A stretch of DNA of 34,300 nucleotides. Origin: Nitrospirota bacterium (GTDB lineage Bacteria; Nitrospirota; 9FT-COMBO-42-15; HDB-SIOI813). The position numbers and the translations under genes were made by a program. Positions 1 to 23,601 of this stretch are shown piece by piece. The notes below the pieces were generated by a model, which searched no databases, was not told the origin of the DNA, and saw only the letters and a list, made by a program, of their open reading frames with translations. Positions within the stretch are counted from its first letter, which is position 1; each line of letters opens with the position of its first letter. The stretch is from the NCBI GenBank assembly GCA_023248395.1, contig JAHFEQ010000008.1:1-34300 (forward strand). Reading direction: 5' to 3'.

Positions 1-917
1 AGGGTCTTTACATGCTGGAGGAAGTTCAACTGCTTGTTTGAAGTGGTCGCCGAAAAGTCCTGACGCTCGTAGATCAGGGACTCCCTGCCCGCCTTCCCCT
101 CTCCGTTAACGATGGTAATGCTGCTCTTCTTGCCAAAGGGTGGATTGGTCAGGACGATATTGAAACGGTCCCCAGGGTCCGAGATCAGGGCATCTCCCAC
201 CTCGATCAGGCTCTCCTCTCCACCAATCCCATGAAGGTAGAGGTTCATGACGCAGAGTCTTGCCACATTGTCGACGATGTCCTTTCCTTTAAAGGTATGG
301 TATTTGAGAAGCCTCTTCTGTTCTATATCCAGCTTATAATGTTTTGACAGATATTCATGGGCCGCCAGGAGAAACCCTCCCGTGCCGCAGGCAGGATCGC
401 AGATCGTCATGCCGGGCTGCGGCCTCGTCACCTCAACCATCGCCCTGATGAGCGGCCTCGGCGTGAAGTACTGCCCTGCACCGCTCTTGATATCCTCGGC
501 ATTCTTCTGCAGGAGCCCCTCATAGATCTCCCCCTTGACGTCGATGTCCATCCCCACCCATGTCTCGCCGTTGATGAGTTCAATCAGGCGTCTCAGTTTT
601 GCAGGGTCCTGGATCTTGTTCTGAGACTTTCTGAAGATGACCCCGAGCATCCCCTTGTCTTTTCCTAGGGTCTCGAGGATATGGCGGTAATGCGCCTCAA
701 GGGCATCCCCATCCCTCTCAAGGAGGCTCTGCCAGTCATAGCCTTTCGGAATGTTGGAAGGCTTGTTGAAGGGCGACCTCGTCTGCTCATCGGCCATCTT
801 CAGGAACAGAAGGTAGGTCAACTGCTCTACATAATCACCATAACTGACGCCGTCATCCCTCAGGACGTTACAGTAATTCCAGAGCCGCTGGACAATAGCG
901 GCGGATTCATTTGGCAT
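1..917 (-). CDS. hsdM: Type I restriction-modification DNA methyltransferase subunit HsdM (C-terminus off the window)
   Basis: Own minus-strand reading from ATG at 915-917: MPNESAAIVQRLWNYCNVLRDDGVSYGDYVEQLTYLLFLKMADEQ...GQYFTPRPLIRAMV...TICDPACGTGGFLLAAHEYL...NIVLTNPPFGKKSS; contains DPACGTGGFL and NPPF methylase motifs. Missing from the ORF track because it is partial. Confidence 0.95.
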   Translation of the reverse strand, partial: MPNESAAIVQRLWNYCNVLRDDGVSYGDYVEQLTYLLFLKMADEQTRSPFNKPSNIPKGYDWQSLLERDGDALEAHYRHILETLGKDKGMLGVIFRKSQNKIQDPAKLRRLIELINGETWVGMDIDVKGEIYEGLLQKNAEDIKSGAGQYFTPRPLIRAMVEVTRPQPGMTICDPACGTGGFLLAAHEYLSKHYKLDIEQKRLLKYHTFKGKDIVDNVARLCVMNLYLHGIGGEESLIEVGDALISDPGDRFNIVLTNPPFGKKSSITIVNGEGKAGRESLIYERQDFSATTSNKQLNFLQHVKT

Positions 918-1266
918 AAACGATCTCCCCTTCTTTGGCATAGGAGGCAATCAGGGAGGTCTCACTTTCATATTCCTCAGGGGTCATAGTGATGATATCC
1001 AGAGGGACCATAAATTTTTTGATGGTCATGATCTCAGCATCTTTAGTTAATTCTATTCTTTTAAAGATGTCTTTCCTCCTGAAATCCGCTGACACAATGA
1101 CAAGATCAATGTCACTTTCATCGGTCGCTCCACCCTTTGCATGGGACCCGAAGAGTATAATCTTTGAAATGTTTAACCCTCTTTCTCTTAAAATGCCTTC
1201 GAGGAATTTAATTATTCTGGTAACCTTGCTTTTAGACATTCTTAAGTTTTCTTTTTTGCTTTTCAC
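907..1266 (-). CDS. MNT-type nucleotidyltransferase domain protein
   Basis: IILFGSHAKGGATDESDIDLVIVS matches the GSxxxG...DxD minimal nucleotidyltransferase motif; overlaps hsdS and hsdM ends. Confidence 0.85.
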   Translation of the reverse strand: MKSKKENLRMSKSKVTRIIKFLEGILRERGLNISKIILFGSHAKGGATDESDIDLVIVSADFRRKDIFKRIELTKDAEIMTIKKFMVPLDIITMTPEEYESETSLIASYAKEGEIVYAK

Positions 1267-2702
1267 AAGACTTTCTCTTTGGTTATCTTCGCCTTCCTAT
1301 TACTTTCCAATTTTGCCTTTTCTGCCTTGATTCGTTCGAGCAACTTCTCAGCGGGTTCATCTGATGGGTCCTGAGGCACCAGCTTCCCCTCAAAGGCCCT
1401 TTTCAAGATGCTCTGCCGCAGCCTCTCCGCCTGCTTGAGGCTCTGCTCCACCACCTTCTCCACCTCATCCGCCACAGAGAACCGGCGTTCGATCTCTTCA
1501 ATGATCTTGTGCTGTTCGGGTAGAGGAGGGAGGGGAATGGGTATGTTCATAATAGTATCCCTATCAATTCCCGGGACAGTTGAACCAGCACCTAATCTTT
1601 GAAATAAATGAAAACTAAAATGTACAAAAAAGAAAACATAGCTGGGATTTACATACCATCCTCGAACTGCCATCAATTGCCGGCTAATAGCTGCGTCTTC
1701 AAGATGAAGAATATTTACCTTACCTACGCCTGCCCCTTTTACTGTTATTAAAATATCATTCTTCTTGGCTATAGCCTTGGGTTTTGTAGTCCATTTCGAA
1801 ATAATGGGGTATTTTAAACCAAAATCAGCCGGCCCTGTTAAATAAGGCACGCCTATAGAATCAAAATTATAATCTCCCGTTAGTATATGTTGTCCTGAAA
1901 CTAAATCCGAAATCTCCTCAATCCTCGTCCAAACCCAACCCACTGGTAATTCAAGCAGGTCGTCATTGTGAGCCGAAGGCGAAGCAATCTCATCTTTTAA
2001 AATCGCTTCGGTCATTTTACTCCTTCGCAATGACGGGCGAGAGGACTTTCCTTTTGTATCCTTTTCCCGTTCCTCTTCAATACGCATCAATAACTCAGAA
2101 GCAGGCTCAATCTTACCTTTATTCGCCTTCCGCCATTCCTCGGTCAACTTCCCCTCAAAAGCATACTTCAAAACCGCCTGACGATACCGCTTCAACTCCA
2201 CCTTCACCTTCTTCAGCGCCTCAACCCCAGCATCCAGCTTCGTAAAAACCTCCTCAATCTTGGCAACAATGCGATATTGTTCGGGGAGAGGGGGGAGGGG
2301 GAGTGATGATTTTTCTAAAAACTGAAAATGTCTAGCATATCCTTTATCAGGCAATTGGATAGCCTGCAAAAAATAATAAAATAGTTTTGGATAAAATACT
2401 TCTAAAGGCTTTATGACTTTGACACCATCAGCACCTGCAATAAATTCAAAGTCAACATACTTAACAACTTTTGTATGGTCACCAAAAATTATTACAGGCA
2501 ACTCACATGAAATTTTAAATTTCTCTTTATTTGTATATCCGCCTATAAAAGATTGTCCTTGGTCAATAACTGGCAGTCGCCCTTTTTCCTGATACTCGCT
2601 CTGTTTTAACTTTTTACCAGTTAGTGAAACTTTTTTAACAATCTCCCCCATCCTCGTCCACACCCAGCCTTTGGGGAGAGAAGGATAGTTATTGCTATTC
2701 AT
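1263..2702 (-). CDS. hsdS: Type I restriction-modification specificity subunit HsdS (two TRDs)
   Basis: Two half-repeats, each starting LP.GWVWTR and ending PLPPLPEQ(Y/H)(R/K)I...(L)K.AFEGKL. Confidence 0.95.
   Translation of the reverse strand: MNSNNYPSLPKGWVWTRMGEIVKKVSLTGKKLKQSEYQEKGRLPVIDQGQSFIGGYTNKEKFKISCELPVIIFGDHTKVVKYVDFEFIAGADGVKVIKPLEVFYPKLFYYFLQAIQLPDKGYARHFQFLEKSSLPLPPLPEQYRIVAKIEEVFTKLDAGVEALKKVKVELKRYRQAVLKYAFEGKLTEEWRKANKGKIEPASELLMRIEEEREKDTKGKSSRPSLRRSKMTEAILKDEIASPSAHNDDLLELPVGWVWTRIEEISDLVSGQHILTGDYNFDSIGVPYLTGPADFGLKYPIISKWTTKPKAIAKKNDILITVKGAGVGKVNILHLEDAAISRQLMAVRGWYVNPSYVFFFVHFSFHLFQRLGAGSTVPGIDRDTIMNIPIPLPPLPEQHKIIEEIERRFSVADEVEKVVEQSLKQAERLRQSILKRAFEGKLVPQDPSDEPAEKLLERIKAEKAKLESNRKAKITKEKVL
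1961..2035. repeat. 75-bp palindromic MITE/REP-like repeat (cgtcattgtgag...cttcgcaatgacg) inside hsdS
   Basis: Imperfect inverted repeat with CGTCATTG/CAATGACG ends and inner gaagcaatc.../...atcgcttcg; in frame within the HsdS inter-TRD linker (SSRPSLRRSKMTEAILKDEIASPSAHNDD). Confidence 0.8.
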
Positions 2703-4578
2703 CTTTTGCTTTCTTTATATTTTCCATCCTACCCTCAAGGTATCTTTTCGTTTGTTCTATTCTATGCCTTATGTGATTTGGATAATCAGTAAGGTTCAAC
2801 TTTCTAAGGTTTTTTAATAGGGTCTCAATTATCCCCAAATTACTGCTTTCTCGCAGGAGTAAAAGCTTATAAGATTCATCTATAAACATATGCACATCTA
2901 TTCTGAATAGATTTTCGATTTCATATCTCTGCGTTTTATTATCATGCAATATGTCATTAAGAAACTTGGCGAAGAAGGTAACACGAGTATCTGTATCAAA
3001 CATTGCCTGTCTAATAGCTTCCTCTCTTCTTTGCAGATTTGCATTGAGAAAGCAAAGAAGCATAGCACGTTTGACTTGGTAGTTCAGTTCTTCATTAAAG
3101 AGATTCCAAAGACGTATCATATTCCGAGCAGATAACTGGAAGTAAGATAATGCCATTAAACAGTTTGCTCTTATTGACCAATGCATTTTTACATCAGTTG
3201 CATACCTATACAAGGTGGCTTCCAAGGAAGTTGGAAGGTGATTTTTATACCTGTAGATTTCTACAAAGCGTGCGATTTGATATTCAAAAATTTCATCATG
3301 ATTTTTGACAAAGGATAAGACATTCTCTGGGATTTTTTCTCCCTGGTGGAAACCTTTAAAGTATTTTACTATTTTATCTGTGAGAGCAGGGGTGTCTTCC
3401 ATCGCGCTAAAACATCTATAAATGGCACTCCTACTTTTTATCAGAGTTAATGCAGTGAGTAATCTTTTGAATAATCTCACATCCTTTGATTTCAGTTTTC
3501 GAGGAATTTGTTTTAAATATACCTTTAACTTTGCTTCATATTCCTCACACTCCTGTCTGGTTAGCTTACCTGCCTGAGCATTCTTTTGAATATCATCTAC
3601 TATGGGAGACAATTGTTCAAATCTTTCATCATGGATATACGAGAACAATTCAGGGTCGGTATAGATATCTGTTTTCGCTGTCTGAACATTTAAATGCAGC
3701 CCTCTTAACTCTCTATTTAAAACAAATAAGGCCCTTCTGGCATCATTTTTGGTTTTTGCTAATATCTTTACATCATCCATATAGCGGAGGTATTTGATAC
3801 CATGCTCTTGTTCAATTTTTGTAAGCACACGGTCTAATGGAATCAAATAAACATTTCCAAGATAACTACTGATATCGTTTCCTTGAGGGATTCCTCTATC
3901 AACGCGATTTCCCTGAGGAGGTAGCACAGTCCATTGTCCTAAGATATCGACAAGAAGATTGACTGGATAATGATCAGGACTGCCAATACAAGATATCAAT
4001 GTGGATTTAAGAACCTCATGGTTAATGTTCTCAAAATAGGCGGTAATGTCCGTTGTTGCCAAAAAATGATATCCCTCATTGAGGATATACTCTTTCATTT
4101 TTTGATCGAATGCCGGCCATGCATTATACCAATCTTCAAATTGTTTAATCTCTTTTCTTTGTTCGATTGGAAGGAGCGAAATATCTCTATCTTCGAACAG
4201 CCGGTCAGTTTTGCGTTTTTCTTTTGGAATGACTCTGCAGGAATAGACATTATCTGGTAAATCTTTATCAATCTCGTCTGCTATCACGTTGATTATCGCA
4301 TAGAGAACGATAAAGTCTTCAAAGTCAATCACTGTACCTGGTCTTGTTGCAAGGCCAGACTTTGGAACTTCAACTTCTAAAGGAACTTTTGGCCTATATT
4401 GTCTTTGTAATAACTTGTTCCTAAGCTCACTTAATAGACGTTTGCTGCTATGAGTATAATCTTGATGTCTGACAAGGTCTGGAATGAAGAATCGTTTTGC
4501 TCCATCTTTTGCGTAATTAAAAGCAAGTTTAAGATTATCTAAGGATGCAATCTGTTTAAGAAGTGTGCTTTCACTCAT
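2695..4578 (-). CDS. Reverse transcriptase with long C-terminal helical extension (Abi/UG-like candidate)
   Basis: Motif A TTDITAYFENI, motif GIPQGND, catalytic YMDD (3772-3783) in KYLRYMDDVKIL; roughly 350 aa follow YMDD, mostly predicted-helical in appearance. No maturase/endonuclease motif recognised. Confidence 0.9.
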   Translation of the reverse strand: MSESTLLKQIASLDNLKLAFNYAKDGAKRFFIPDLVRHQDYTHSSKRLLSELRNKLLQRQYRPKVPLEVEVPKSGLATRPGTVIDFEDFIVLYAIINVIADEIDKDLPDNVYSCRVIPKEKRKTDRLFEDRDISLLPIEQRKEIKQFEDWYNAWPAFDQKMKEYILNEGYHFLATTDITAYFENINHEVLKSTLISCIGSPDHYPVNLLVDILGQWTVLPPQGNRVDRGIPQGNDISSYLGNVYLIPLDRVLTKIEQEHGIKYLRYMDDVKILAKTKNDARRALFVLNRELRGLHLNVQTAKTDIYTDPELFSYIHDERFEQLSPIVDDIQKNAQAGKLTRQECEEYEAKLKVYLKQIPRKLKSKDVRLFKRLLTALTLIKSRSAIYRCFSAMEDTPALTDKIVKYFKGFHQGEKIPENVLSFVKNHDEIFEYQIARFVEIYRYKNHLPTSLEATLYRYATDVKMHWSIRANCLMALSYFQLSARNMIRLWNLFNEELNYQVKRAMLLCFLNANLQRREEAIRQAMFDTDTRVTFFAKFLNDILHDNKTQRYEIENLFRIDVHMFIDESYKLLLLRESSNLGIIETLLKNLRKLNLTDYPNHIRHRIEQTKRYLEGRMENIKKAKDE

Positions 4579-4589
4579 AATTTAAGGAG

Positions 4590-5717
4590 CTATGCGACAT
4601 CTCGAAACTTCTGAATGTCCCTCTCCGGGCAAAATTCATCTGGAATAAGTTCTAACACGGTTGTCTTAAGCCTATTCAAGTTTCTCTGGCTAAGAAAGTC
4701 ATGGTGCTGGAGAATACCAACAACAATGGTCGGACTTATTTCAAATTCCTGCGCACAATTCAAAACCCTATCCATTGAAATATATCTTTTATAGGGTTCA
4801 AAATATCTTAATATCTCTTTTGCCTTAAGTATCTTTTCAGCAAACTTATTCGCCGCTTTCTCTTTTTCTGTATTTAGGTCATCCAGATTATCTATAAAGC
4901 GGTCATCTTGCTTTTTAAGATGCAATAGGATATGTGCAATTTCATGGGCAAGAGTAAACCAGAAATTATCTATTCTGTCATGTCTGGCTGTATAAACAAT
5001 GACCGGATTTGAGTTATCAAAAAAGGACGCCCCGTCTATGTAGGTCTTCTGAAGGTGGCTCAGGGCAAAGAACTTGATACCACTTTCATTGAGTTTCTTA
5101 AGAACGGTTTCCACTCCATCTTCTAAGATGGTATATCTAAAGAGATAGTCAGCCAGGACTTGTAACGCATCCTTGTCGTATTTCTTTACTTTATAGAATC
5201 TTGCACATCTCTGGGCCATCTTAAACCAGGTATAGGCATAGTACTTATTGTATTGTGTGAAGGCTTCAGACTTTCTAAAGTTCATTGAAGCATCATCTAT
5301 AAAAGAAAAATCTAAAGTGGGGATCCCCCAGAATTTTTTTATTTCATTAACCAAATCATCAATAGTCTTAAGAGATTTTAACCAACCTTTTTTAATCATT
5401 TCCTTAACAGGCATGTATTTATAGATATTCGCCCTAATTTTCACATCTTTTTCTTCAACCCCCTCTTTTTGGAGCCTCAATCTATAATTTGTATCAAGAT
5501 TAATCCAGTATTGCGGAGATTGTCCAAAAGCCTTGCTTAACAGCTTTGCGGTTTCGATAGTAATAGCCTGCTTATTTATAATAAGCTTGTTCACATTCTT
5601 TAAAGAGATCCCAAGTATATCCACCAGGTCTTTCTGTCGCCAATTACGGGCCTCCAGTTCTTCTTTGATGAATTTACCTGTTCCAATGTTTAAAAAAGGA
5701 GCATATTTATTTCCCAT
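4590..5717 (-). CDS. XRE-family HTH + ImmA/IrrE-type metallopeptidase domain protein
   Basis: N-terminal HigA-like HTH (WRQKDLVDILGISLKNVNKLIINKQAITIETAKLLSKAFG), C-terminal FWFTLAHEIAHILLHL (HExxH). Confidence 0.88.
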   Translation of the reverse strand: MGNKYAPFLNIGTGKFIKEELEARNWRQKDLVDILGISLKNVNKLIINKQAITIETAKLLSKAFGQSPQYWINLDTNYRLRLQKEGVEEKDVKIRANIYKYMPVKEMIKKGWLKSLKTIDDLVNEIKKFWGIPTLDFSFIDDASMNFRKSEAFTQYNKYYAYTWFKMAQRCARFYKVKKYDKDALQVLADYLFRYTILEDGVETVLKKLNESGIKFFALSHLQKTYIDGASFFDNSNPVIVYTARHDRIDNFWFTLAHEIAHILLHLKKQDDRFIDNLDDLNTEKEKAANKFAEKILKAKEILRYFEPYKRYISMDRVLNCAQEFEISPTIVVGILQHHDFLSQRNLNRLKTTVLELIPDEFCPERDIQKFRDVA

Positions 5718-5774
5718 GATTAATCCTCATTTAGGAAGTGTTTTAATATGTTTTGTCCGTATCTTATCAGCTTG

Positions 5775-7166
5775 TCAATTCCCTGTCTCCTCAATTATTT
5801 TTCTCCCTCGTCCTGTGAGAATATACCTACCACCTTTATCAGGCCCGATTCTCTCAAGCAGGCCTTTCTCTTTGAGGTTTCTAATATTTTCTTTAATTTT
5901 CCTTTCAGAAATTCCTACTATAGAAGATAATTTATTTGCCGTTATATATTCATATCTCCTAATCTCTCCTAAAATCCTGATCTGGTTTTCAGTGACCTTT
6001 TCAGTGACCTTTTCAGTGACCTTTTCAGTCTTACCGGCAATCTTGAAATATTCACGGCTTGGAGTGAAGGTTATATAAAAATAATTTTCATTATATTCTA
6101 TTTTTGGATAAGGAGTATTTTCTTTTCTACATATTCTCCTCATTCTACCTATTCCCGTCCCCATCTTTTCACCAAAATGGATTCGGGAAAATAGATCAAC
6201 AATCAGGTGATTTCTTCTAAAGACTGTTTCACCGAGTGTAAAGTGCCGAGGTTTTAGCCAGAAGTTCTCAATTTTTATTTTGCCGGGTAGAAATTTTAAG
6301 ATATTGTTATGTCCGTGCTCGAAATAATACTTATGCATAACCGAATTGATTACGGCCTCCCTTATAGCCTCGAACGGATACTCATATATCTCTTCCCTCT
6401 GTGGTTTTCCGGTAAATCTGTAAGCAACCTTGGAATAAAGTTTTACAAAGTCCATCACCTGTTGAACTATCTCAAAGAGACCACCACCTATCTCTTTCCT
6501 GTCAATGACATCCACCCCCTCTATATCCTTGAATAAGGCGACTGTAAAAACAGACCAGGGTGTAAATCTCTGCGGTTCCCTGGCGAAAAATAGTACCCCT
6601 GCATTGTTGAAATATAGCTTGCCTTCCTGTTTTTCTGCGACACCTAAATTAAGCAGGATCGTCTCAGTATTCGTCGATTTTGAGAGTCCAGCGAGTTCTA
6701 AAAATCTCAACAGTTTATTCTTATCAAAATCCTTTGGATAATTAAACTTCAGATCTATCAGTTCATCAAATCTTATTTTCCCTTCAGATTTGAAAAAGTC
6801 AATGATTTCGTCCCTTGTCATCTTCTGTGAGTTAGGACCTAACCTCTTGAAAAACCCGGCAGAGCACTCATATGGCTTCTCATCGCCCTCCCTGACATGG
6901 ACTATCAGGATGTTTTCAAATTCATCAAACAAAATTTTTACTTTGGGCCGGCAGTTGTTTGCGATGTCCTGGATCTGTGATTTCAATCTATTGGAAATCT
7001 GAACACCTTTTATTTTACCATCATCAGTTATACCAATGAAAATTCTGCCACCTGATGCATTGGCAAAAGCAATGATCTCTTTGTCCAAACCGTTTGTATT
7101 CTCCTTAAATTCAATCTTGTAGCCTTCACCTTCTTGCAGAATTAATTGAAGTTCCTTTTTATTCAT
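5775..7166 (-). CDS. AlbA_2/Schlafen-type putative ATP/DNA-binding protein with C-terminal winged helix
   Basis: EFKENTNGLDKEIIAFANASGGRIFIGITDDGKIKGV is a typical AlbA_2 signature; C-terminal HTH-like ITANKLSSIVGISERKIKENIRNLKEKGLLERIG. Confidence 0.85.
   Translation of the reverse strand: MNKKELQLILQEGEGYKIEFKENTNGLDKEIIAFANASGGRIFIGITDDGKIKGVQISNRLKSQIQDIANNCRPKVKILFDEFENILIVHVREGDEKPYECSAGFFKRLGPNSQKMTRDEIIDFFKSEGKIRFDELIDLKFNYPKDFDKNKLLRFLELAGLSKSTNTETILLNLGVAEKQEGKLYFNNAGVLFFAREPQRFTPWSVFTVALFKDIEGVDVIDRKEIGGGLFEIVQQVMDFVKLYSKVAYRFTGKPQREEIYEYPFEAIREAVINSVMHKYYFEHGHNNILKFLPGKIKIENFWLKPRHFTLGETVFRRNHLIVDLFSRIHFGEKMGTGIGRMRRICRKENTPYPKIEYNENYFYITFTPSREYFKIAGKTEKVTEKVTEKVTENQIRILGEIRRYEYITANKLSSIVGISERKIKENIRNLKEKGLLERIGPDKGGRYILTGRGRKIIEETGN
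5986..6030. repeat. 12-bp tandem repeat (ttttcagtgacc, about 3.7 copies)
   Basis: ttttcagtgacc x3 + ttttcagt; encodes (TEKV)n linker of the AlbA_2 protein. Confidence 0.9.
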
Positions 7167-9979
7167 GCCGCCAGCACCTCGTTCAGATCCTCAAGGATAC
7201 GGTTCACCTCCGGCCCAAAGAGCTGGTGAATCCTGACAGGGCCACCCTTCTCATAGAACGGCGCTAATTCAAGGTCTTCCATGCTGATGCTCAGGGAGGT
7301 GGCGATGTGCTCTTTGATCATCGAGAGCCATTCCCTCTGTTCCGGAGTGAACCGTTTCCCGGCCTTTTCATGATCCAACAGCCATCTGCTAAATCTCCGG
7401 TCCACGGTCTCTGAGAAGGGTTCAAGGATGTTGCTCTCTCCTACGGCAAAGCGGATCAGGGAGATGATGTTGGTCAGGAGCTTTTGCGGCCCTACCCCTC
7501 TGACCTTTGCTTTCTCCAGGTGTTCATAGGCCTGCCAGAGGAGTTCAGGGGTGAGGTTATAGGGCGGTCTTTTGATGGCATCCGCAAGTTCCTTGATCTC
7601 TTCATACACGATGTGACGTCTGCGATAGGGTTTACTGTAGATGATCTGGAGCGCCGATAGCTCATCCCTTTTCTCTTCTATGAATCGCTTGAAGGTATCC
7701 ACAACGGTCCGGGCCTTCTCCTTTGCCTTCTCATCGAAGCCGGCAAAGAGGAGCGCATCTTTGCTTACCGTATCGATGATCTGTTCACTCCTCTTTTTGA
7801 TCTCGATCAGGGTATTTCTCAATACCGGATTGTCAAAAGGGGAACAGGCCACCTTCACCAACTCGTCTGAGGCCTGACGGATCTGCTCTTCTGTCGGCAC
7901 ACCGGTCTTGAAAATCTCCCGTGCCTTCTCTATCTTTTTATCCGGGTCCACGGCATCCAGCAGGTTGTTGATGATCTCTTTTAAGGGCTTCCCATCGGCG
8001 GCAGTCTCTATCTCTCTCCCGTCCTTTTCATCGATCTCTTTCGCCAGCCTTGCAAGCCTTCCGGCCAATGAAATAAGTGTATCCTCGTCCCTATTCCCGA
8101 GGGCAACCGACAGTATGAGTTTATCAAAGGGGATGCCCCTCTTACGCTCCAGCGGCCTTGAGTCTGTCTTGTCATTCTCACAGACCCCCACGGCATCGAT
8201 GATCACAAAGTGGGTTTTATGAACGGCATCGCGTGTGACCGCGTTCAGATCTGTAGGAGAAATAACTCTCGTGCCCCGCCCTTTCATCTGCTCAAAGTAG
8301 ACCCTCGATTTCACATCCCGCATAAATAAGAGGCACTCGAGGGGCTTTATATCCGTGCCTGTTGAGATCATGTCTACGGTCACGGCGACGCGGGGATTGT
8401 AGGAGTTACGAAAACTGGCGATGAGGTCTTCAGGCTTTTCGCCTGTCGTCTTATAGGTGATCTTTTTGCAGAAGTCATTTCCCTTACCAAATTCTTCCCT
8501 GACGATATGGACGATATCTTCGGCGTGGGAATCGTCTTTGGCAAAGATGAGGGTTTTGGGGACATCATTTCTGCCGGGGAATATCTCTGTAAAGAGCTTT
8601 TCCTTAAAGGTCCTGATTACAGTCCTGATCTGATCGGGCGCCACCACATCCCGGTCTAACTGGATCGGTGCATACGCCAGCTCTTCGTCTAATTGCTCCC
8701 ATTTGGTCTTTCTTGTGAGCTTGTCCCTCCTGTCGACATAATAGCCGGCATCCACCTTACTCCCCTTTCCCGTGATCTCGGTCTCGATCCGGTAGACCTC
8801 GTACCCCACATTGACACCGTCTGCAACGGCACGCTCATGGCTATACTCCATGACCAGGTTCTGGTTGAAAAAGCCGAGGGTCTGTTTCGATGGTGTTGCG
8901 GTAAGCCCTATGATAAAGGCGTCAAAATATTCGAGGACCTGTCTCCAGAGATTATAAATAGAGCGGTGGCATTCATCGGTGACGATAAAGTCGAAGGTCT
9001 CAATTGGAATCTGAGGGTTATACAGGACCTCCCTTGCCCTCTCCTCTTCAGGTAAGATATCGAACAGGGACCGCTCTTCCAATTCTGCATCTAACCCCGG
9101 CTCCCCCTTTAGCATGGAATAGAGCCTTTGAATCGTGGTGATGCAGACCCGGCTGACAGGATCGAGGGTATTGGAGGCGAGGTGTTGGACATTGTAGAGT
9201 TCTGTAAACTTCCTCCCGTCATCGGGTGTGACATACTGCTGGAATTCCTTCTTCGCCTGACGCCCCAGGTTACTCCTGTCGACCAGGAACAGGATCCTTC
9301 TTGCATTAGCGAATTTGATCAACCGGTAAATGAAGCTCACGGAGGTATAGGTCTTGCCGCTGCCGGTGGCCATCTGGATGAGCGCCCTCGGTCTTGCCTC
9401 TGAAAAGGATAGGTCGAGGTTTTTGATGGCCTCGATCTGGCAGTCCCTTAATCCCCCCCTTCCCGTTGCAATGCTTCGCAGCAACGAGAACCCAGCCCCT
9501 TTACTAAAGGGGGGTGAGGAGGGAATCAGAGGCGGCATTTGCTTCAGTCTTGTTCGGAGGGTGGCGCTGTTTGAAAGCCACTCTTTCAGGGTCTCCGGCT
9601 TATGAAAGGCAAACACCCTTCGGGAGCGTGTTTCGGGGTCCCGCAGATCCCTGAAAAAGGTCTCAACACCGGTACTCTCATAGGCAAAGGGGAGGGGCTC
9701 CTGGACATGGGGGAGATTCTCAGGGACTCCAACCAGGTAGGCCTGAGATTGCTCTGCCACGCCGCTTAATGTCGTTCCTTCTGGCTTTGCCTCTACAACA
9801 CCAGCCGCCTTTCTATCCACGAAGAGGAGATAATCGGCAGTACCGGATTCGAGAGGAAACTCCCGGACAGCGATACCCAGGGCGGCACTGAGATTTAATT
9901 CCCTCAGGTCTTGCACCTTCCAGCCAGTGGCTTCCAGCAACTTGTCTATATTTTTCCTTGCCTTTTCCTCAGGTTTCAT
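7163..9979 (-). CDS. hsdR: Type I restriction endonuclease subunit R (EcoEI-like)
   Basis: GLRDCQIEAIKNL, Walker A MATGSGKTYTS, DECH box (VTDECHRSIYNLWRQVLEYFDAFIIGLTATP), C-terminal EcoEI-like region. Confidence 0.95.
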   Translation of the reverse strand: MKPEEKARKNIDKLLEATGWKVQDLRELNLSAALGIAVREFPLESGTADYLLFVDRKAAGVVEAKPEGTTLSGVAEQSQAYLVGVPENLPHVQEPLPFAYESTGVETFFRDLRDPETRSRRVFAFHKPETLKEWLSNSATLRTRLKQMPPLIPSSPPFSKGAGFSLLRSIATGRGGLRDCQIEAIKNLDLSFSEARPRALIQMATGSGKTYTSVSFIYRLIKFANARRILFLVDRSNLGRQAKKEFQQYVTPDDGRKFTELYNVQHLASNTLDPVSRVCITTIQRLYSMLKGEPGLDAELEERSLFDILPEEERAREVLYNPQIPIETFDFIVTDECHRSIYNLWRQVLEYFDAFIIGLTATPSKQTLGFFNQNLVMEYSHERAVADGVNVGYEVYRIETEITGKGSKVDAGYYVDRRDKLTRKTKWEQLDEELAYAPIQLDRDVVAPDQIRTVIRTFKEKLFTEIFPGRNDVPKTLIFAKDDSHAEDIVHIVREEFGKGNDFCKKITYKTTGEKPEDLIASFRNSYNPRVAVTVDMISTGTDIKPLECLLFMRDVKSRVYFEQMKGRGTRVISPTDLNAVTRDAVHKTHFVIIDAVGVCENDKTDSRPLERKRGIPFDKLILSVALGNRDEDTLISLAGRLARLAKEIDEKDGREIETAADGKPLKEIINNLLDAVDPDKKIEKAREIFKTGVPTEEQIRQASDELVKVACSPFDNPVLRNTLIEIKKRSEQIIDTVSKDALLFAGFDEKAKEKARTVVDTFKRFIEEKRDELSALQIIYSKPYRRRHIVYEEIKELADAIKRPPYNLTPELLWQAYEHLEKAKVRGVGPQKLLTNIISLIRFAVGESNILEPFSETVDRRFSRWLLDHEKAGKRFTPEQREWLSMIKEHIATSLSISMEDLELAPFYEKGGPVRIHQLFGPEVNRILEDLNEVLAA
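9450..9527. repeat. Palindromic repeat (aatcccccccttccc...ccctttactaaagggg...gggaatc) with nested hairpin, inside hsdR
   Basis: CCCCTTTACTAAAGGGG-type palindrome and internal CGTTGC AATGCTTCGCA GCAACG hairpin; encodes IPSSPPFSKGAGFSLLRSIATGRG between MPPL and GLRDCQ. Confidence 0.75.
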
Positions 9980-21192: not shown

Positions 21193-21369
21193 TTAAGCTG
21201 CTGGCAATGGACCTGCGGCAACAAGTTTTTTTAAGCGAGAGTCAACTGTTAAATTAAGCCCTCCTAAAGTTCTTGCGCCAAGTAAGGGCATATCGCCTTC
21301 TTCGCCGAATACAACTTCATCAATTGTAAAACATTCGCCAATAAGCCCTCCTTTTTTTAAATTTTCCAT
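21193..21369 (-). pseudogene. Truncated retroviral-like aspartyl protease family ORF (C-terminal half only)
   Basis: Own minus-strand reading: MENLKKGGLIGECFTIDEVVFGEEGDMPLLGARTLGGLNLTVDSRLKKLVAAGPLPAA*; resembles the C-terminal half of clan-AA aspartyl protease proteins; the catalytic DTG half is absent. Confidence 0.6.
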
Positions 21370-21499
21370 ATAACGTAGAAGTCAGTGAATCGAACCACTG
21401 AAGCTCATCAAAAAGCAAAAAACTGATTTGCATACCTCAAGCTATCACAGGCTAAAAAAATGACCTGTGGTTCGATTTCACTGCACTGACTGGTTGGGT
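21368..21499 (-). other. attC-like recombination site 1
   Basis: Minus strand: R'' ACCCAAC (RYYYAAC) ... GTTATAT (GTTRRRY with one mismatch), 132 bp; arms AGTGAAATCGAACCA / TGGTTCGATTCACT with one unpaired A; inner cacagg...cctgtg hairpin. Confidence 0.7.
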
Positions 21500-21507
21500 G
21501 GTCTTAA

Positions 21508-21690
21508 TTAAGATGCTTTTGCTCTCACCACAACCGCAGCCCGCTTTGCCGGTAGCGATACTACTTTTCGTCCACCTCTTTTTTGTTGTTTCTTCAGATC
21601 TTGATATATCGCATCCAGATTGTAATTAAATTTCGCTGCATGCTCCTCGCGTACTTTCCTTACATCTTCTACTATGCTATCTTTCCACAT
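21508..21690 (-). CDS. Putative antitoxin of a PIN toxin-antitoxin pair
   Basis: MWKDSIVEDVRKVREEHAAKFNYNLDAIYQDLKKQQKRGGRKVVSLP; small ORF immediately after the PIN gene. Confidence 0.75.
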   Translation of the reverse strand: MWKDSIVEDVRKVREEHAAKFNYNLDAIYQDLKKQQKRGGRKVVSLPAKRAAVVVRAKAS

Positions 21691-21694
21691 AGTT

Positions 21695-22165
21695 TTATCC
21701 TCCCATGAGTTCTTCCGGTGTGCATATAATCGGAGGTTCAAAATGGTTTCTGCGGCATACTGCAGCTATAGCATGTTCTTTTTCAGCATTGGCTATATGT
21801 TTACAGTTCCATGTTAATAAATAATCCATACCATGAATTACAGCAACAGCAATATGCAAAGCGTCTTCCACTGCTTTTGGTGGTAAAGCTTCATCTATCA
21901 TGATACGAGCTAAAGATATTACTTTCTCATTCAACTCAAGTAACGGAATTGATTCAAGGATGTCCAGACGTTTTTGTGCTGCATTTTTGTCGCCTGCTTT
22001 TGCTTCTTGAATAACAAGCTGGGAAATAAATAAATCAAAACGTTTCCTACGATTCTCCCACCATTCATTTGTCAATTCCTGATGCGCAGCAATGATAATA
22101 TCCCTGCTTGGTCTCGCAGCAAGATAACTGATAATAGATGTTTCTAAATATACCTTTTGCTTCAT
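21695..22165 (-). CDS. PIN-domain (VapC-like) toxin
   Basis: VYLETSIISYLAARPS, acidic DALHIAVAVIHGMDYLLTWNCKHIANA typical of PIN proteins. Confidence 0.85.
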   Translation of the reverse strand: MKQKVYLETSIISYLAARPSRDIIIAAHQELTNEWWENRRKRFDLFISQLVIQEAKAGDKNAAQKRLDILESIPLLELNEKVISLARIMIDEALPPKAVEDALHIAVAVIHGMDYLLTWNCKHIANAEKEHAIAAVCRRNHFEPPIICTPEELMGG

Positions 22166-22245
22166 TTCATAATGTCCGTAATAATCGAACTATATCAACT
22201 TAATGTCCTTCTGAAGCGTGCCAGGATTGGATTCTATAGCTTTCA

Positions 22246-22376
22246 TCAAAACGCAAAACTGACTGATGCGTACCATGAACGATAACAACCAGCATAAAAC
22301 TGATTGGCAAACCACAGGGCATGACAGACTGAAAAAGTGTCCTGTGGTACGCATTCAGTCCAGTGCCGGGTTAGGC
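22246..22376 (-). other. attC-like recombination site 2
   Basis: Minus strand: R'' GCCTAAC (RYYYAAC) ... GTTTTGA (GTT only partly consensus), 131 bp; arms ACTGAATGCGTACCA / TGGTACGCATCAGT with one unpaired A; end-segment lengths identical to site 1. Confidence 0.65.
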
Positions 22377-22395: not shown

Positions 22396-22644
22396 TTACA
22401 TCAAAGCTGTTGTTTGAAACTCTAATCCAAATATCATGAAATGCCGTCTGCATTTCTTGAATTGCCCAAGGAATTGTTCAAGTTGGCGAATCGCATCTGT
22501 CGCCACAACATAGTTTATCACTCGAGAACCTGAATCAATTGTACTTTTGCCATAACCCACACTTTTTTTCATGATATTACTGATATTATTTATAATCTGT
22601 CCACTTGTTAAATAATTTTTCCCCTTCATTGCAGAATTACTCAT
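22396..22644 (-). CDS. Hypothetical ORF, possible first cassette gene
   Basis: 82-aa ORF directly upstream of attC-like site 2 in the same orientation; no family recognised. Confidence 0.4.
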   Translation of the reverse strand: MSNSAMKGKNYLTSGQIINNISNIMKKSVGYGKSTIDSGSRVINYVVATDAIRQLEQFLGQFKKCRRHFMIFGLEFQTTALM

Positions 22645-22675: not shown

Positions 22676-23063
22676 CTATTCTCCAACATGCTCCATTATT
22701 CTATAAGCATAACTATTGTTTATATAGTTTCTGTATAACACACCTGATGCTTTCACAATGCGTCCGCAGGACTGCGCACGACTGCACACGCCTTTGCCTC
22801 CTCGGTTTAGCACATGGGTGTAACTCATTGTCATCTTAACGTTCTTGCGACCAAGTAGTTCCTGAACTGTCCGGATGTTGTAGCCGTCCCCGAGCAGATA
22901 AGTCGCAAATGAGTGGCGAAAGACATGGGCGGACAGTGATCACCGCCCTGACTTCTTCATGCGCCTTGACCACAGGTACGTGCTTTGACCTGCGGGCTCG
23001 GATCACTTCCTCGATCTCGCTAATCTCCAGACCAAGCACGTGTCGATATAGAAACAGTAATGC
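22676..23063 (-). pseudogene. intI: Degenerate integron integrase (IntI) fragment with internal deletion and frameshift
   Basis: Own minus-strand reading: [42 protein letters not shown], then in another frame [52 protein letters not shown]...; these match the regions of IntI ending ...LPVVLTxEEVRALL and [47 protein letters not shown]. Confidence 0.85.
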
Positions 23064-23082
23064 ACTTCAGTCTCTCTTTTCG

Positions 23083-23601
23083 CTACTTCTTCAATGTCAC
23101 CTTCTTCATCACATCCCCGACCTTGACCTTCTGGATCACGTCCAATCCCTCTGTCACCTGACCAAAGACAGTGTATTTGCCATCCAGAAAAGGCTGCGGG
23201 GCAAGGCATATATAAAACTGGCTATCTGCACTGTTGGGGTCCATGGCCCGCGCCATGGCCACAGTACCTGTGCCATGCGTTTTGTTGTTAAACTCTGCCG
23301 GCAGCTTTACCCCGCTCCCTCCTGTGCCGTCACCCTTCGGGTCTCCACCCTGTATCACAAAACCCGGCTCTACCCTGTGGAAGTTCAGACCATTGTAAAA
23401 TCCGGTCTCTATGAGATGCGATATCCTCGCTACAGTCTTTGGCGCGACATCCGGATACATCTCAAATACGATCTTCCCTCTATCCATCTCTATAGTAACC
23501 ACTGGTTTATCTCCCCCTTTCTTTGCGCTTTCTGCAGCAAAGGTAGTCACTGCGAAAAAGGTTAATACCCCAACGACAAGCGATAAAACGATTCTCTTCA
23601 T
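23083..23601 (-). CDS. Cyclophilin-type peptidyl-prolyl cis-trans isomerase, exported
   Basis: Signal peptide; FYNGLNFHRVEPGFVIQGGDPKGDGTGGSG; MARAMDPNSADSQFYICLAPQPFLDGKYTVFGQV. Confidence 0.95.
   Translation of the reverse strand: MKRIVLSLVVGVLTFFAVTTFAAESAKKGGDKPVVTIEMDRGKIVFEMYPDVAPKTVARISHLIETGFYNGLNFHRVEPGFVIQGGDPKGDGTGGSGVKLPAEFNNKTHGTGTVAMARAMDPNSADSQFYICLAPQPFLDGKYTVFGQVTEGLDVIQKVKVGDVMKKVTLKK

Follow-up and report, generated by a model that had tools for sequence, protein, structure and literature searches.

The window analysed here is a stretch of 34,300 nucleotides at the start of contig JAHFEQ010000008.1 from a Nitrospirota bacterium (assembly GCA_023248395.1). Read along the minus strand, the end of a peptidyl-prolyl isomerase gene (ppi, stop at 23083) is followed by an integron integrase (intI) pseudogene, a short broken coding region, a first attC site (attC1), a gene encoding a PIN-domain protein, a 60-codon gene, a second attC site (attC2) and a 58-codon open frame. 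The gene that converges on this frame from its far side appears, from a reading of its sequence, to encode a protein resembling formylglycine-generating enzymes. The features of the locus are as follows.

22781 to 23090, minus strand: intI pseudogene in two fragments that lie in different frames and match TIGR02249; the central ~137 codons and the N-terminus are missing.
22396 to 22644, minus strand: short open reading frame (ORF) ahead of attC1, with broken frames around it.
22246 to 22376, minus strand: attC1, R'' box GCCTAAC and R' box GTTTTGA, recognised by structure, scanner and covarying arms.
21374 to 22251, minus strand: toxin-antitoxin cassette of 878 bp, from the G/TT of attC1 to the G/TT of attC2.
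21695 to 22165, minus strand: PIN-domain (VapC-like) toxin gene, 156 amino acids; Pfam PIN E-value 2.7e-4, slightly below the curated cut-off.
21508 to 21690, minus strand: small partner gene, 60 amino acids, presumed antitoxin; the same type of small protein follows the PIN gene in other cassettes.
21368 to 21499, minus strand: attC2, R'' box ACCCAAC and R' box GTTATAT, recognised by structure, scanner and covarying arms.
21193 to 21369, minus strand: 58-codon open frame that begins at attC2 and resembles the tail of a gene.

The boundaries of the cassette and the G/TT cut points were inferred from attC biology. Family searches returned no match for the ORF ahead of attC1, which probably represents a first cassette whose gene is broken. 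The 58-codon frame begins inside the end of attC2, has no NCBIfam match and is perhaps a truncated next cassette; its C-terminus (MPLLGARTLGGLNLTVD) resembles, by eye, the end of a retropepsin-like protease. Elsewhere in the window (907 to 9979, minus strand) lies a run of genes that resembles a defence island, with the specificity and restriction subunits of a type I restriction system, a reverse transcriptase between them that is nearest to DRT class UG21 (E-value 1e-113), a helix-turn-helix/peptidase protein similar to PD-Lambda-2_B, an AlbA-type protein and a nucleotidyltransferase.

The original prediction had placed two attC-like sites of nearly equal length around the cassette, and most of its structural detail holds. 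The minus-strand positions were borne out, with lengths of 131 and 132 nt, as were the 36-nt left segments and the fit of both R'' boxes to RYYYAAC; the right segments, counted from TGGT, are 30 nt long and not 32 nt as claimed. The predicted covariation of the arms was recovered in full: all arm pairs (18 out of 18) are formed in both sites and six of them differ by compensatory double changes, whereas sliding the partner arm by one to three columns leaves no double change. With bulged bases in brackets, the arms read ACT[G]GACTG[A]ATGCGTACCA / TGGTACGCATCAGTCAGT in attC1 and AGT[G]CAGTG[A]AATCGAACCA / TGGTTCGATTCACTGACT in attC2. The first pairing tried contained one mismatch in attC2, which is abolished by shifting the first bulge by one base. 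The invariant AAC and GTT are present at the ends of both sites and pair in addition to the arms, which are flanked on both sides by 5-nt spacers. An unpaired A does occur at the same place in the two sites, but it is not the single unpaired base that had been described, since a G is also bulged, giving two extrahelical bases per site at identical positions, the G first and the A six positions on. Described attC sites carry an extrahelical bottom-strand G followed by a T 6–8 nt further on (PMC2727003); both sites here have the bottom-strand T at 6 nt from the first extrahelical base, which is itself a bottom-strand C instead of the described G.

A purpose-written scanner for attC-type structures gives the two sites its two highest scores in the window (19.1 and 18.1), and none of its hits reaches 14 in 2.06 Mb of random sequence with matched dinucleotide composition. 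The same scanner recovers the attC arrays that adjoin intact integrases in other genomes. Energy folding of the bottom strands, which had been proposed as a check, is consistent with an attC structure (z of −2.4 and −5.1 against shuffled sequences) and constitutes weaker evidence than the scanner and the covariation. At this locus the gene precedes the attC site on the same strand.

Two observations had been named as counting against the original prediction: similar palindromes in this genome that are not linked to cassettes, and the lack of a hit with an attC covariance model. The former are absent, as a covariance model made from attC1 and attC2 (R1) matches exactly these two sites in the 2.0-Mb genome. 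As to the latter, neither site is matched by the generic attC models R2 and R3, both built for this analysis and run with default filters. R2 likewise returned no match on the window with its filters off, a result that carries no weight for sites this long because filters-off runs shorten long sites (a 91-nt site drops from 21.5 bits with default filters to 11.4 bits).

When R1 was applied to nine further members of the family, no copies were detected. A search of 395 genomes from the same phylum gave matches in 45, well over 100 in total and nearly all of them full length, which define a subfamily of sites of ~132 nt. Within the loci that were examined, 46 sites fall into eight arrays, each array confined to one strand, with a median spacing of 848 bp; one array that was read through (L207) has mostly one ORF per interval between sites. 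Among 70 aligned members of the subfamily 92.5% of the pair cells are formed and double changes are seen at 18 out of 21 pairs. The alignment reaches a covariation score of 0.451, compared with 0.135 for shuffled and at most 0.063 for slid alignments; these statistics lean towards structure because the alignment was fitted to the model. The first extrahelical base is a top-strand G (bottom-strand C) in 61 out of 68 sites, and the distance from the stem to the AAC and GTT ends is constant. The strongest evidence that the sites of this subfamily are attC sites is their linkage to integron integrases. Four of them lie beside a full-length intI (4709 to 5650) in locus L212, a full-length intI also adjoins subfamily sites in three further loci (L259, L260 and L271), an intI with one internal TGA does so in L258, and in L270 a site is found 6 kb from an integron integrase. 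In integrons with attC sites of this subfamily, intI is arranged divergently, as is usual.

These distributions bear on two alternative explanations. The palindromes could belong to a REP- or MITE-like repeat family, unrelated to integrons, that flanks the toxin pair by chance, as their imperfect symmetry, homologous loops and ~68% identity to each other might suggest. Such a family is very hard to reconcile with only two copies in the genome, conserved AAC and GTT ends and a strictly same-strand arrangement elsewhere at cassette spacing and beside intI, and we consider it highly improbable. The palindromes could otherwise be transcription terminators or structured RNA elements that control the toxin pair: each follows directly on a coding region, and either strand folds better than most or all shuffled sequences (z of −2.4 to −5.3). 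No Rfam family, however, came near its threshold or reached the gathering threshold in a search around both sites, the element is also found behind unrelated genes in the arrays, and its AAC and GTT ends keep a constant spacing from the stem; this explanation, too, is almost certainly wrong.

The R' boxes had been recognised as the weak point of the attC assignment. They are GTTTTGA in attC1 and GTTATAT in attC2, as originally read, and neither fits GTTRRRY. Only 17 out of 69 R' boxes within the subfamily fit GTTRRRY, so that the strict consensus is no requirement in this subfamily. GTTATNN is common among them and GTTATAT itself recurs, which makes attC2 an ordinary member and largely removes the objection. 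The GTTTTGA of attC1 is unusual in the subfamily. It may reflect decay or, as these bases are contributed by the following cassette, just the 5' end of that cassette.

The intI pseudogene, which was absent from the original prediction, lies directly upstream of the cassettes. TIGR02249 positions 61–121 match at 22908 to 23090 and positions 259–310 match at 22781 to 22936; the two pieces abut in different frames, ~137 codons having been lost between them, and no NCBIfam model matches the C-terminal fragment better than TIGR02249. Together with the same-strand arrays and the linkage to intI within the phylum, this adjoining pseudogene supports the claim that attC sites surround the PIN cassette. 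No integrase above the TIGR02249 cut-off was identified anywhere in the genome (assembly 95% complete), so that, short of the arrival of an integrase, the cassette is probably immobile. In its orientation, towards the cassettes, the relic differs from the intI of the divergent integrons that share its attC subfamily. Its closest relative in the data set is the integrase of another genome of the phylum (G033), to which the two pieces are 66% and 58% identical; there an intact intI has its cassettes downstream on the same strand and the attC sites are of a different, short type. The array in that genome (L030) comprises at least eight attC sites downstream of intI, a rare facing layout within the same phylum. 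A relative from the family (G001) carries two apparently intact integron integrases with no recognisable attC adjoining them (L031 and L032).

The orientation of the relic leaves room for a third alternative, that an integrase acting elsewhere inserted a stray, CALIN-like cassette beside what is left of an integron or recombinase unrelated to it, in which case the two were never one unit. The facing layout in an attC subfamily of divergent integrons, the different, short attC sites of the nearest integrase relative and the lack of a complete intI in the genome agree with such an insertion. The relic and attC1 lie only ~400 bp apart, however, in an interval that is short among relatives, two tandem cassettes suggest an array, and the G033 integron itself combines the facing layout with cassettes. 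On balance a stray insertion is unlikely, and the common origin of relic and cassettes as parts of one integron is preferred.

A comparison with relatives places the integron remnant at the end of ppi. The ppi and cca genes closely face each other in two relatives, with a gap of ~115 bp in G008 and ~260 bp in G004, and a third (G005) has unrelated genes there; because the flank in G004 contains a run of N, G008 provides the cleaner uninterrupted junction. In the window, the integron remnant and one additional gene lie between ppi and cca. Similarity to G004 ends at 23079, just past the ppi stop and within ~15 bp of the start of the integrase similarity. Members of the family carry a methyltransferase-like gene, a nucleotidyltransferase/HEPN-like pair or nothing after ppi (L067 in G007 and L065 in G005), suggesting that the region downstream of ppi is a small insertion hotspot.

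The two genes of the intact cassette are presumed, from their sequences, to be a type II PIN (VapC-like) toxin-antitoxin pair. A homologue of the PIN protein from a cassette array passes the Pfam PIN cut-off and a plasmid homologue is annotated as a VapC family toxin; the 60-amino-acid partner belongs to no Pfam family. The cassette shares 90.5% DNA identity over 790 bp (22173 to 21384) with a contig of Thermodesulfovibrionia DeMMO2_3 (L073), and this similarity is limited to the cassette interval. MiaB is only 51% identical between the two genomes, indicating that the cassette moved horizontally, and recently. The pN/pS of the toxin gene is 0.1 by a crude estimate. On the DeMMO2_3 contig a different attC-like site lies upstream of the PIN gene (1512 to 1602, E-value 0.013), and the contig also carries an integrase N-terminus. 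Among 80 loci with PIN homologues, a generic attC model detected 12 sites located 157–306 nt downstream on the same strand, compared with 0.46 expected; four of these 12 had been used in building the model and eight had not. They derive from the Cyanobacteria (8), Acidobacteriota, Gemmatimonadota, Calditrichota and Desulfobacterota, and a similar small protein follows the PIN gene in nearly all 12 loci. One array (L169 in G177) unites several toxin-antitoxin genes, the PIN pair being followed by genes for a CopG-type antitoxin and a BrnT-type toxin, each separated by an attC site. A literature search of open-access papers did not find the PIN/60-amino-acid pair as a cassette of many phyla, which does not prove that it is absent from the literature.

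Overall, the locus is very likely the remnant of a chromosomal integron. Against this reading stand the failure of R2 and R3 to match the sites, the atypical GTTTTGA, the orientation of the relic and the fact that no attI was identified. The element is of a known kind; its lineage, its attC subfamily and the breadth of its PIN cassette are what is new. It resembles sedentary chromosomal integrons with long attC sites of VCR-like length in its homologous sites of ~130 nt with R and L boxes, an unpaired central spacer, two extrahelical bases and a long terminal structure (features that define attC sites; PMC2727003), in its one- or two-gene cassettes and in the proximity of intI, and differs from them in having intI as a pseudogene and no more than one intact cassette. 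The sites themselves depart from described long attC sites in the identity of the first extrahelical base, a bottom-strand C and not G, and in the frequent GTTATNN of the R' boxes of their subfamily. In decayed integrons, for example in Xanthomonas, cassettes were kept despite the loss of intI through a deletion, a frameshift or a stop, and one survey found that about a third of intI genes are pseudogenes (PMC2426708; PMC12444791); the same combination of a broken intI and a kept cassette is seen here in another phylum, with the array down to one intact cassette. The relic that faces its cassettes recalls the Treponema integron, in which intI faces cassettes located downstream on the same strand (PMC3607928), a layout that G033 displays with an intact intI in the same phylum; unlike in the Treponema type, intI is broken here and the attC subfamily is elsewhere tied to a divergent intI. 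Toxin-antitoxin cassettes with two ORFs are among the commonest cassette functions (PMC8618304), represented here by the PIN/60-amino-acid pair.

The proposed history of the remnant begins with an integron integrase that would have captured at least two cassettes at this position through the folded bottom strands of attC sites, presumably by IntI recombination of the bottom strand with cleavage at G/TT. The intI gene would then have lost its start and ~137 central codons, and the array would have shrunk to a degraded first cassette with attC1, the intact PIN cassette with attC2 and perhaps the end of one more gene. Lacking an integrase, the remnant would now be immobile, and the toxin-antitoxin pair may have been retained because its loss would free the more stable toxin.

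The list of phyla with integrons in a 2021 review omits the Nitrospirota (PMC8618304). It could be, with our confidence evenly divided, that the phylum has its own widespread attC subfamily of ~132 nt, with a bottom-strand C at the first extrahelical base and TAAC/GTTA-type boxes, which generic models can miss so that integrons are under-counted, and that at the same time the PIN/60-amino-acid pair is a travelling cassette of at least six phyla that persists after integrase decay. The locus adds integron cassettes to an uncultivated lineage in which they have scarcely been described, and links the exchange of cassettes among many phyla to one family of toxin-antitoxin pairs. The locus also provides a case of a toxin gene under purifying selection after the decay of the integrase, which bears on the question of whether toxin-antitoxin cassettes stabilise arrays.
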